A stretch of 64,000 bases of DNA from Buchnera aphidicola (Phyllaphis fagi) (GTDB lineage Bacteria > Pseudomonadota > Gammaproteobacteria > Enterobacterales > Enterobacteriaceae). Location of the stretch: the NCBI RefSeq assembly GCF_964058955.1, contig NZ_OZ060370.1, positions 124,001 to 188,000 of the forward strand. Direction: 5' to 3'. The position numbers were made by a program, and so were the translations under genes. Shown here piece after piece: positions 6,477-25,165 of the stretch. Positions within the stretch are counted from its first letter, which is position 1. Each line of letters begins with the position of its first letter. The notes under the pieces are model-generated. The model was not told the DNA's origin. It searched no databases and worked only from the letters and a program-made list of their open reading frames with translations.

Positions 6477-7772
6477 ATGAATATAAAAAAATATAATCAG
6501 AATACGTCATTATCTATATGGTTATCATACATTGAAACAATATATCCTGTATGCAATCATTTTTCAATGTGTCGTATTACTAAAGTAGCAAAAAAATTAG
6601 GTGTACTTAATTTTTCATCTTTTTTATTTACAGTATCAGGAACTAATGGAAAAAGTAGTACTTGTTATATGTTAGAAAAAATTTTATTAAACTCAGGATA
6701 TACAGTAGGATTATATACTTCTCCTCATTTAATAAATTATTATGAACGTATTCGAATAAATGGAAATTATGTAAAAGATGATATTATACATACTACTATA
6801 TTTCATGCTATAGAATTAGCACGTAAAAATACTTTATTAACTTTTTTTGAATTTGTTACCTTATCTGCTTTATTAATATTTAAACAACAAAATTTAGATA
6901 TAATTATTTTAGAAGTAGGTATTGGAGGTAGGTTGGATGCTACTAATATTTTAGATCCTAGTGTAGCTATTATTACAAATGTAGAATTAGATCATATGCA
7001 TTTATTAGGGTATGATAGAAATAGTATTGGTTTAGAAAAAGCTGGTATTTTTAGAAAAAATATTAATGCAATTATAGGAACTTATAATATTCCAAAAACA
7101 ATATATCAAATATCAGATCGTTTAGGTACTCAATTAAATAGATTATTATATGAATGGAATTGGATAAAAATATCTGATAATTGGCATTTTTATGATAGAT
7201 ATGGAGGATTATATCAATTACCAATTCCAAAAGTTTCATTATCCAGTACTGCTATTGCAGTATCTGCTTTAAGAGTATCGAAGTTTATTATACATGAGAA
7301 AGTATTGAAAACATCTATAAAAAAAGTTTTTTTACCTGGTCGTTTTCAAACAATTTTAACAAATCCTCATGTAATTGTAGATGTTGCACATAATCCTCAT
7401 GCTGCTATTTTTTTATATAAACAATTAAAACAGTTAATATTATTAAAGAATAATCAGAATTTTAAAATATACAGTATTATAGGTATGGTATCTGATAAAG
7501 ATGTTAAAAATACAATTTATCCTTTATTAGATATTATTGATTATTGGTTTTATGTTCCATTACAAACGAAAAGAAGTGTTAATATACATATTTTAAAATC
7601 TTACTTACCTCATACAGCAATATTATGTCGTAATGTTCAGCATGCTTTTCAAAAAATAATGAAAACTGTTAAATTAGTAGATATCATTTTAATATTTGGT
7701 TCATTTTTTTTAGTTTCAGAAACGATTTTGTTTATTAAAAATCAAAATAATATCAAAAATATTATATTATAA
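6477..7772 (+). CDS. folC: Bifunctional folylpolyglutamate synthase / dihydrofolate synthase
   Basis: FolC adds glutamate to dihydropteroate and to folates in the cytoplasm, an ATP-dependent Mur-ligase-type reaction. The 431 residues compare with 422 in E. coli. The ATP loop GTNGKSS is at residues 55-61, followed by the YTSPHL and ERIRING signatures and EVGIGGRLDATN near 145-157. The C-terminal domain has DVAHNPHAA near 305 and ends in a short hydrophilic tail. It is the last forward gene before prs on the opposite strand, and a hairpin directly follows its stop. Confidence 0.96.
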   Translation: MNIKKYNQNTSLSIWLSYIETIYPVCNHFSMCRITKVAKKLGVLNFSSFLFTVSGTNGKSSTCYMLEKILLNSGYTVGLYTSPHLINYYERIRINGNYVKDDIIHTTIFHAIELARKNTLLTFFEFVTLSALLIFKQQNLDIIILEVGIGGRLDATNILDPSVAIITNVELDHMHLLGYDRNSIGLEKAGIFRKNINAIIGTYNIPKTIYQISDRLGTQLNRLLYEWNWIKISDNWHFYDRYGGLYQLPIPKVSLSSTAIAVSALRVSKFIIHEKVLKTSIKKVFLPGRFQTILTNPHVIVDVAHNPHAAIFLYKQLKQLILLKNNQNFKIYSIIGMVSDKDVKNTIYPLLDIIDYWFYVPLQTKRSVNIHILKSYLPHTAILCRNVQHAFQKIMKTVKLVDIILIFGSFFLVSETILFIKNQNNIKNIIL

Positions 7773-21029: not shown

Positions 21030-21716
21030 ATGAAAGATACAGAAAAGACAATGATAGAAAATTTATTTTCTAGATTAAAGCATACAGAAAATAAAACACC
21101 AAATCGTGATCAGGAAGCAGAAAGAATTATTCATAATTTATCATCTAAACAGGTTAATTCGATTTATTATATGGTTCAAACTATTTTAGTGCAAGAATCT
21201 ATAATACATAAATTAAATAATCAAGTGAAGTTATTGCAAAACGCACAAAATGATAGAAATAATAAAAATACTGAATTTTTATCTAGTAAATTAGGTAATA
21301 ATATTTTTAATACTAAAAAAGATGACATAAATTCTAATTATAGAAATGATAATAAGGGAAAATATTATTCTTCAGATAATAAGGATTATAGTACAACTAA
21401 AAATAGCATGCTTGGTGGAGTATCCAGTTTTTTAGGAAATGCTGTTCAAACTGCTGTAGGTGTTGCAGGTGGTATGGTAGCTGGTAATATGTTAACTAAT
21501 TTATTTAATCATGATCAATCTGAAAAAAATATAGAAAATAATTTATTAAATACATCATATTTAGATTCTAATATGGTTTCTTCAGAAACTGATAGAGATC
21601 ATTTAATAGATTCAGAATTATCAAATCATATAAATCCTGATGATAGTAATTTAGAATATGTTGAGTATCAAGATTCTGATATGGATGATATGATTGATGA
21701 CGAAAGTTTTATTTAA
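21030..21716 (+). CDS. DUF2076 family protein of unknown function
   Basis: The first 70 residues (TMIENLFSRL, a short gap, DQEAERII, then YYMVQTILVQESIIHKLN) match the DUF2076 N-terminal helical region, and a Gly/Ala-rich hydrophobic segment near residues 128-150 (GGVSSFLGNAVQTAVGVAGG) is also typical of that family. The rest is acidic and Asn/Ser-rich and ends in DMDDMIDDE. There is no signal peptide; the Gly/Ala segment could associate with membranes. Family function is unknown and none can be assigned here. It diverges from gyrA and converges with ahpC, and has AGGA before its ATG. Retention of a full-length frame in such a reduced genome argues that it is used. Confidence 0.8.
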   Translation: MKDTEKTMIENLFSRLKHTENKTPNRDQEAERIIHNLSSKQVNSIYYMVQTILVQESIIHKLNNQVKLLQNAQNDRNNKNTEFLSSKLGNNIFNTKKDDINSNYRNDNKGKYYSSDNKDYSTTKNSMLGGVSSFLGNAVQTAVGVAGGMVAGNMLTNLFNHDQSEKNIENNLLNTSYLDSNMVSSETDRDHLIDSELSNHINPDDSNLEYVEYQDSDMDDMIDDESFI

Positions 21717-22624: not shown

Positions 22625-23284
22625 ATGGAAAATTTAGTGATAAATTGGAAAAAAATATTTACATATCAAAAACAAATATTATCAAACATTTTATTAAAAG
22701 TTACTAAAGAACGTATAACAAAAGTAGTATATCCTGATAAAAATGATGTATTTAATGCTTTTTATTTAACGCCTTTTAATAATATAAAAGTAGTAATAAT
22801 TGGTCAGGATCCATATTATCATAAAAATCAAGCTCATGGATTATCTTTTTCTGTACGTCCTGGTTGTAATATACCTGGTTCTTTAAAAAATATTTATAAA
22901 GAATTAATGTGTGATTTGTCTCTTTGTAAATCTTATTGTTTTAATGGTTGTTTATCACATTGGGCTAAACAAGGAGTGTTGTTATTAAATACTATTTTAA
23001 CTGTTGAAGAAGGTAAACCTAGATCTCATTTAAATTTAGGATGGCAAGATTTTACGGATAATATTATTTTTTATATTAATAAATATTTAAAAGGGGTTAT
23101 TTTTGTATTATGGGGTAAAGATGCTCAAAAAAAAATTAATATTATAGATATTAATCGACATTATATTTTAACTGCATCACATCCATCACCTTTCTCAGCA
23201 CATTTAGGATTTTTTGGGTGTCGTCATTTTTCTAAAATTAATAAAATTTTATTAGATCAAGAATATGATCCAATTATTTGGTAA
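22625..23284 (+). CDS. ung: Uracil-DNA glycosylase
   Basis: Removes uracil from DNA, starting base-excision repair of deaminated cytosine. The 219 residues match the family (229 in E. coli). The water-activating loop GQDPYYH has the catalytic aspartate at D62, and the second catalytic loop HPSPFSAH starts at H186. NTILTVEEGKPRSH and the LLLNT region are also conserved. Retention of Ung is notable in a genome under such strong C-to-T pressure. It is convergent with the grpE-like gene, with only 26 bases between the stops. Confidence 0.97.
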   Translation: MENLVINWKKIFTYQKQILSNILLKVTKERITKVVYPDKNDVFNAFYLTPFNNIKVVIIGQDPYYHKNQAHGLSFSVRPGCNIPGSLKNIYKELMCDLSLCKSYCFNGCLSHWAKQGVLLLNTILTVEEGKPRSHLNLGWQDFTDNIIFYINKYLKGVIFVLWGKDAQKKINIIDINRHYILTASHPSPFSAHLGFFGCRHFSKINKILLDQEYDPIIW

Positions 23285-23310: not shown

Positions 23311-23853
23311 TTAATTTTTTTTAAATTTTTGAAAAGTATTTGATAATGATTTTATAATTAGTTTTAATCCTTGTATAATTGTATGATTTTCTAATATTCC
23401 ATTTTTAGTATTATTGATTATAATATTTAAATTATTTATATTTAAGGATAATGTTTCTAAAAAGTATTTTAAATTATCTTGTGTAATTTGATATTTTTTT
23501 TGTTCTGTTTGTTTTATTACATTTTCAATATTGGCTTGTGTACGTAATTGGATATCTCTTGTATTTTTTTTAATATTATCTAGTTTTTCATTTAACTGAT
23601 TGATTATTTGATATTCATCGTGTTCATCTATGGTTTGAGGTTCATCGTGTTCATCTATGGTTTGAGATTCACCATGTTCATCTATGGTTTGAGATTCGCC
23701 ATGTTCATCTATGGTTTGAGATTCGCCGTGTTCATCTATGGTTTGAAATTTGCTGTGTTCATCTATGGTTTGAGATTCATTTAATGTATCAATATTTTTA
23801 GATTGGTCTGATTTATTGATTTTTTGAGATTCATTGAATTTACTTATTTTCAT
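23311..23853 (-). CDS. grpE: GrpE-like protein, truncated, with N-terminal 9-residue repeats
   Basis: From about residue 100 to the end the protein follows the long-helix region of GrpE: RTQANIENVIKQTEQKK corresponds to the R-x-K-A-E-x-E-N-x-x-R-R-T block, and the later IIQGLKLIIKSLSNTFQKF to the I-E-G-I-E-L-T-L-K-S-M segment. It then stops, exactly where the C-terminal beta domain should begin, so the roughly 60-residue domain that contacts the DnaK nucleotide-binding lobe is missing; no such sequence is found in other frames before ung. The N-terminal part holds six tandem copies of QTIDEHxxx (residues 28-81), not a usual GrpE feature. A promoter-like element lies upstream. It may be a decaying second grpE (pea-aphid Buchnera carries two) or a modified cofactor. 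Confidence 0.8.
   Translation of the reverse strand: MKISKFNESQKINKSDQSKNIDTLNESQTIDEHSKFQTIDEHGESQTIDEHGESQTIDEHGESQTIDEHDEPQTIDEHDEYQIINQLNEKLDNIKKNTRDIQLRTQANIENVIKQTEQKKYQITQDNLKYFLETLSLNINNLNIIINNTKNGILENHTIIQGLKLIIKSLSNTFQKFKKN
23611..23772 (-). repeat. Six tandem 27-base repeats inside the grpE-like gene
   Basis: Six uninterrupted 27-base units each encode QTIDEH plus a variable triplet (SKF, GES, GES, GES, DEP, DEY). On the + strand the last 17 bases of every unit, TGTTCATCTATGGTTTG, are identical in all six copies, while the first ten vary. The unit length keeps the frame. DNA-level identity in a fast-drifting genome implies recent expansion by slippage or unequal exchange. Confidence 0.95.
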
Positions 23854-23893: not shown

Positions 23894-23921
23894 ATTATAG
23901 AGATTTTAATATTTTGTTCAA
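23894..23921 (-). promoter_or_regulatory. Probable promoter of the grpE-like gene, with a sigma-32-like -35
   Basis: On the - strand TTGAAC (23921-23916) is followed after 16 bases by a perfect TATAAT (23899-23894), about 40 bases before the start codon. The overlapping CTTGAA at 23922-23917 equals the -35 core of heat-shock promoters, although the GC-rich sigma-32 -10 (CCCCAT) is not present. It is consistent with basal plus heat-shock expression, inferred only from motifs. Confidence 0.5.
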
Positions 23922-24664: not shown

Positions 24665-24806
24665 TTTTTATATTACTATTTGAATTTTTTATGTTCAACA
24701 TAACATGAATTTATATACTTTTTTTGATGTTGATTACATCATAATAGATAAAATATATTAATTAATTATTTTATTTTTATTGATAATGAGATTATTAAAT
24801 GTTTTT

Positions 24807-25165
24807 TGGAGCTGGCGGGATTTGAACCCGCGTCCAAAATATCTACAACTTTAGTACTACATGCTTAGTCTTTTTTTTATACTTAGTGTTTTAAGTTTTA
24901 AGACGAAAACCGTATTAAACACGCATCTCGTATTACTATCATATTAATTATGAGATTAATTAATATAAGATTCTCTTTTTTTTGACCTTTATATATTATT
25001 CTATTTAAGAGTGTTAAGAATAAAAAAGGGCTTTATTAGTTTATTAAGCTGCTAAAGCGTAGTTTTGTTTTTTTGCATTTATTAATTTCGGTTTTTATCG
25101 AGGCAACCGTTCCTCGGCATGCACTAAAAGTTTTCAAAAATTTTGTCGAATCCAGAATCAGCCCC
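24807..25165 (-). ncRNA. ssrA: tmRNA (transfer-messenger RNA)
   Basis: Rescues ribosomes stalled on broken messages and tags the product for proteolysis. The 5' end GGGGCTGATTCTGGATTCGA (25165 downward) pairs with the 3' end CAGCTCC (24814-24808) to form the tRNA-like acceptor stem, and the T arm GCGGGTTCAAATCCCGC lies just inside. Position 24807 gives the discriminator A, but the next template bases read AAAAA, so the 3' CCA is not encoded and must be added by the CCA-adding enzyme. The tag reading frame is 25076-25044, GCA to TAA, encoding AKKQNYALAA. This is the only RNA gene found and the most GC-rich stretch in the region. SmpB is not in this window. Confidence 0.97.
25044..25076 (-). 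other. tmRNA proteolysis-tag reading frame
   Basis: Ten codons plus stop within ssrA encode AKKQNYALAA and are followed by a second in-frame TAA. The NYALAA end is identical to the E. coli tag ANDENYALAA, which SspB/ClpXP and ClpAP recognise, while the middle is changed from NDE to KKQ, replacing two acidic residues with lysines. Confidence 0.93.

Follow-up and report, generated by a model that had tools for sequence, protein, structure and literature searches.

Buchnera carries two annotated grpE genes. In the 64,000-nucleotide stretch of the Buchnera aphidicola (Phyllaphis fagi) genome analysed here (the window; contig NZ_OZ060370.1, positions 124,001 to 188,000), one frame encodes a GrpE-related protein, named here GrpE1, that lacks the C-terminal beta wing with which the family opens the nucleotide cleft of DnaK. 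A first-pass annotation made from the sequence left the choice between a dead second grpE and a repurposed protein, and the question raised by the locus is which of these it is and, if it is in use, what a GrpE without a wing might do. Features of the locus are collected in Table 1.

Table 1. Features at and around the GrpE1 locus, in window positions
Feature	Position	Strand	Basis or remark
Wingless GrpE paralogue (GrpE1), 180 aa	23311..23853	-	ORF, Pfam match, alignment to E. coli GrpE
Acidic N-terminal tail, predicted disordered (residues 1-76; net charge -14)	23626..23853	-	Charge count and model
27-bp tandem array, 6.4 copies (TRF), six TIDEH units	23607..23779	-	TRF and reading-frame check
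Stalk motif LRTQANIEN (E. coli L63-N71)	23521..23547	-	Part of the DnaK linker/substrate-domain contact in published structures, according to PMC12915176
Gly162, equivalent of E. coli G122, helical bundle	23368..23370	-	Invariant in 16/16 rows and in 58/58 GrpE1s
Promoter-like element TTGAAC-N16-TATAAT	23894..23921	-	Sequence; -35 also readable as CTTGAA
ung, convergent neighbour	22625..23284	+	ORF list
ssrA (tmRNA), nearest upstream gene sharing the GrpE1 strand	24804..25165	-	Upstream neighbour

The GrpE1 frame and its conservation

GrpE1 starts at an ATG and is uninterrupted throughout; an open run of 104 codons has a chance probability of about 1e-5 at the local base composition. The Pfam GrpE family (PF01025) matches it with 34.4 bits against a curated cut-off of 25.8, covering only profile positions 9-109 of 165, and alignment to E. 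coli GrpE (1dkg_A) places its end at about residue 137, where the beta wing begins. A profile built from 16 wingless relatives also stops at 1dkg residue 137 (E 1.1e-13); the five different PDB sequences that it hits with E <= 0.1 are without exception GrpE or mitochondrial GrpE. The long stalk helix and the short dimerisation-bundle helices of the family are present, and an AlphaFold2 monomer model made with 16 relatives predicts helices at residues 77-149, continuous over 73 residues, and 158-179. The earlier description of a helix region that stops where the beta domain should start, 26 bp from the stop of the convergent ung, is thereby borne out in both respects. Because the wing is absent by sequence in all 17 wingless frames that we identified, GrpE1 is treated here as a GrpE-derived subunit and is not filed as a stand-alone exchange factor.

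These 17 frames come from two genera and represent every genome covered in either. In the symbiont's own genus GrpE1 and a winged copy, GrpE2, both occur in 11/11 genomes, GrpE1 being wingless in all, so that the full-length grpE that the first-pass annotation proposed to look for does exist elsewhere in the same genome; a second genus (g53) has a wingless GrpE1 in 6/6 genomes, three found by family search and three, which had scored below its threshold, by tblastn and inspection of reading frames. In the own-genus loci that were looked at, the sequence after the GrpE1 stop holds no relic of a wing. As to frame-breaking mutations in close relatives, all 17 frames are open through the helical region and 16 run from an ATG, but in one genome (G207; L130, 8121-8477 and upstream) the sole ATG is separated from the open frame by 23 consecutive A, a frameshift near the start; this run may be read through by slippage, or may be an assembly error.

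A codon model for GrpE1 (106 codons, the 11 own-genus genomes, fixed tree) gave a best grid omega of 0.05 (lnL -2784.9, against -2911.2 at omega = 1), and the corresponding figures for GrpE2 were 0.08 (-3683.0, against -3856.1); synonymous sites in this genus are near saturation and the omega values therefore rough, yet omega = 1 is far off. The dN/dS comparison across related symbionts thus rejects neutrality strongly for GrpE1. The promoter-like element reported earlier is also real as a conserved feature: TTG[AC]A-N15-18-TATAAT stands at the same place upstream of grpE1 in nine of the 11 own-genus genomes, where shuffled sequences predict 0.08, and upstream of grpE2 in none (shuffles predict 0.10). 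With the frame kept throughout, omega = 1 rejected and the promoter conserved, GrpE1 is not ordinary decay, as its clean frame had already suggested, and a dead second grpE finds no support.

In heat-shock promoters the -35 box reads CTTGAA. For Buchnera of Schizaphis graminum, grpE transcripts are reported to rise on heat shock, the copy being unspecified (PMC1440324). Among GrpE1-type loci prx adjoins the gene in 33/33 and ung in 31/33; at the locus of G010 (L014) there was no ung match, the wingless grpE1 still being there, and beside grpE1 in G109 (L072) ung was not found, so that ung has been lost at least twice with grpE1 retained. A DUF2076 protein of 228 aa, encoded in the window at 21030-21716 (+), has also been retained in this 431-kb genome.

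The acidic tail and its repeats

The tail that precedes the helices is predicted to be unstructured: in the AlphaFold2 model residues 1-70 have block-mean pLDDT values of 46-57, and no helix begins before residue 77. Within it the six in-frame 9-residue repeats noted in the first-pass annotation were recovered as six 27-bp TIDEH units in frame 0, with stops closing every other forward frame, and with a TRF score of 262 this array ranks first in the window, the runner-up outside the GrpE1 gene scoring 81. The repeats had been taken as a sign of function, a view that comparison does not uphold, since such arrays are confined to single genomes and the long tail is missing from eight of the 11 own-genus GrpE1s. 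Other genomes have unrelated in-frame arrays: MDHSKESNQ is repeated 9 times in the GrpE1 tail of G004 and NVITDE 8 times in that of G028, and the GrpE2 tail of G119 has a 15-residue unit in 4 full copies. The in-frame arrays in GrpE tails at loci L018, L069 and L058, with 9-residue and 8-residue units in GrpE1 and 15-residue units in a GrpE2, arose independently of one another. The TIDEH repeats are probably the product of in-frame slippage inside a disordered tail that tolerates changes in length. More speculatively, and as a lead only, the TIDEH and NVITDEK arrays could by analogy multiply an acidic-flanked hydrophobic core resembling the IIM motif of E. coli GrpE, which is described as competing for the DnaK substrate site (PMC12915176).

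Reciprocal loss in a pair of GrpE copies

Gene neighbourhood and tree identify GrpE1 as the orthologue of the ung-side GrpE copy in other genomes of the group, in which, beyond the two genera above, GrpE1 is winged. Both copies were found in 89 of the 90 group genomes (own genus 11, g53 6, g45 11, g19 2, g73 36, g11 16, and eight further genera with one each); in the exception, G262 of the winged genus g11, the stretch where GrpE2 should lie is given as N, and GrpE1 is broken. The G262 GrpE1 (L217, G262:C1:138000-152000, 6755-6988 and upstream) contains stops and a frame shift, and the adjacent ung, prx and gyrA are open. Among 198 genomes surveyed in the family, 22 had two GrpE matches, of which 21 are small genomes of this group. 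The remaining one, G038, measures 5.1 Mb at 49% completeness, and both of its GrpE matches are weak. The gene tree groups the 58 GrpE1s in a clade with support 0.98, and the GrpE2s in one with support 0.29. Among open-licence papers our literature search returned none that deals with a split or wingless GrpE in Buchnera.

Both copies were scored at the columns that 28 enteric single-copy GrpEs conserve (E. coli numbering throughout). Ten are kept by GrpE1 only (L63, R64, A67, E70, N71, F91, G122, L125, T126, G138) and eleven by GrpE2 only (R75, F86, K90, A105, Q155, A156, Q175, R183, L184, P187, M189); the helical part holds nine GrpE1-only against four GrpE2-only columns and the wing one against seven (Fisher p 0.024, a guide only, the sequences being related). 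Individual positions are sharply divided. R64, A67, N71 and G122 are present in 55, 57, 58 and 58 of the 58 GrpE1s, and in 0, 0, 4 and 1 of the 79 GrpE2s, where position 122 is D in three and E in 16. Conversely, P151, H154, R183 and P187 are found in 79, 79, 76 and 78 of the 79 GrpE2s, and in 17, 40, 0 and 1 of the 41 winged GrpE1s, three of which have A156. The enteric GrpEs used for comparison have proline at position 187, where 40/41 winged GrpE1s have lysine (K187); here a wing stripped of its former hallmarks is under a new constraint. The pattern of loss, first noticed in 33 + 29 sequences, recurred in a further 71.

Over all columns, retention in winged GrpE1 and in GrpE2 is not anticorrelated (Spearman +0.29, +0.19 and +0.03 at three thresholds), and rate covariation between the helical parts gives a partial r of 0.37 in 31 genomes, with control pairs reaching 0.41, and of 0.25 in 10 own-genus genomes. 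AT bias alone is not the cause of the split, since reduced, AT-rich genomes that have one GrpE mostly keep both halves: N71, G122, H154, Q155, A156, Q175 and R183 are kept in 7/7 of those read (nine tried). The own-genus genomes have one HSP70 gene in 10/11, and its linker is conserved in 11/11. What is new here is that GrpE1, to judge from these alignments, belongs to a pair with complementary losses across a whole group of genomes.

A putative heterodimeric exchange factor and its relatives

Published complexes give these residues a place. In the M. tuberculosis structure (8GB3) one DnaK is bound per GrpE dimer, the wing and stalk of molecule A gripping the nucleotide domain and the stalk of molecule B the substrate domain, with lobe IIB touched by both protomers and the R64 equivalent used by both; stalk mutants (R64A and N71A among others) are reported hardly to bind DnaK and to fail to support viability (PMC10803776). 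The human complex is described in similar terms, with the B stalk carrying the linker and substrate domain, the A wing meeting lobe IB through P172 and A177, and the B wing touching the substrate-domain lid; the lobe IIB contact is given to protomer A in the text and to B in a legend (PMC11685456). Judged by spacing, P172 and A177 would be the counterparts of P151 and A156 in E. coli. The stalk segment touching the substrate domain is given as L63-R75, and binding of the nucleotide domain is said to need G122, G122D inactivating E. coli GrpE (PMC12915176, PMC10825016).

Since GrpE1 keeps what protomer B needs and GrpE2 what protomer A needs, we think it probable that the two are dedicated subunits of one heterodimeric DnaK exchange factor. 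The two would dimerise through stalk and bundle, with GrpE2 in the A place, its beta wing opening the nucleotide domain, and GrpE1 in the B place, its stalk holding the interdomain linker and substrate domain; a second wing would be redundant in such a dimer, and could have been deleted in one or two lineages. GrpE2 alone should be weak, given the M. tuberculosis stalk mutants. The retention of the wingless frame in every genome of both genera, the low omega of GrpE1, the persistence of both halves in reduced genomes with one GrpE, the conserved promoter that grpE1 has of its own, the near-universal pairing, the survival of grpE1 in G010 after loss of ung and the single HSP70 in 10/11 own-genus genomes all speak for this arrangement. 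Against it, the split is limited to particular positions, with no overall anticorrelation; lobe IIB is not cleanly a task of protomer B, both M. tuberculosis protomers touching it, and protomer A there also uses R64; the human contact between B wing and lid is impossible for a wingless GrpE1; and grpE1 is broken in G262 and its stalk motif degraded at locus L022. Of the repurposed roles first suggested, that of a partner of full-length GrpE fits best, as a complementary subunit, but not as a dominant interferer, GrpE2 lacking what GrpE1 keeps; nothing in the present analysis speaks specifically for thermal sensing or DnaK delivery.

Complementary retention of this kind also fits two separate homodimers working at different moments, with GrpE1 acting on the linker and substrate domain of DnaK to loosen substrate and GrpE2 exchanging nucleotide, and in the monomer model GrpE1 still has both stalk and bundle, through which it could pair with itself. 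We regard this as unlikely, however, for a GrpE2 homodimer without R64 and N71 should bind poorly if the M. tuberculosis mutants are a guide (PMC10803776), and 19 of the 79 GrpE2s carry D or E at position 122, where G122D inactivates the E. coli protein (PMC12915176, PMC10825016). A new task for GrpE1 unrelated to GrpE2, as coiled-coil scaffold, thermal sensor or brake on DnaK, could draw on the long predicted helix, on the -35 that reads as in the heat-shock consensus and on the lineage-specific K187; it is nevertheless quite improbable, as GrpE1 conserves the old DnaK-contacting set and no new one, and GrpE2 has lost exactly that set. That GrpE1 is a pseudogene in slow decay, its frame still open by chance, as the lost wing, the fast divergence, the broken copy in G262 and the poly-A frameshift in G207 might suggest, is most improbable of all in the face of 17 frames open through the helical region despite high divergence, the rejection of omega = 1, the invariance of N71 and G122 in 58/58 and the conserved promoter.

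Returning to the heterodimer, we further consider it rather likely, from the sequence comparisons, that the group as a whole runs DnaK with an obligate heterodimeric exchange factor with one gene for the A protomer and another for the B, two lineages having a one-winged form (one DnaK, GrpE2 and wingless GrpE1). Whether GrpE dimers are symmetric or asymmetric, and serve one DnaK or two, has been argued from structures (PMC10803776); if the present reading is true, the asymmetry seen in homodimer structures is written into the genome, and the duplicate would have been kept under extreme genome reduction because decay struck a different half of each copy. Protomer roles split into two genes would also be assignable residue by residue from sequence, and testable by subunit mixing.

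Other duplicated GrpEs offer partial parallels. The Arabidopsis chloroplast paralogues CGE1 and CGE2 resemble the symbiont pair in being two GrpE copies, and tend to form heterocomplexes with co-chaperone activity; unlike the symbiont reading, CGE1 works alone, and the abstract of PMC6987454 mentions neither complementary loss of DnaK-contact residues nor a wingless subunit (PMC6987454). Vertebrate GrpEL1 and GrpEL2 are likewise a duplicated and diverged GrpE, but are described as organellar and specialised in redox sensing, not as split protomer roles (PMC12987570). In E. coli (1DKG) and M. tuberculosis (8GB3) one gene supplies both protomers, whereas the symbiont has two differing genes, each without conserved residues that the other keeps, and its GrpE1 is wingless.
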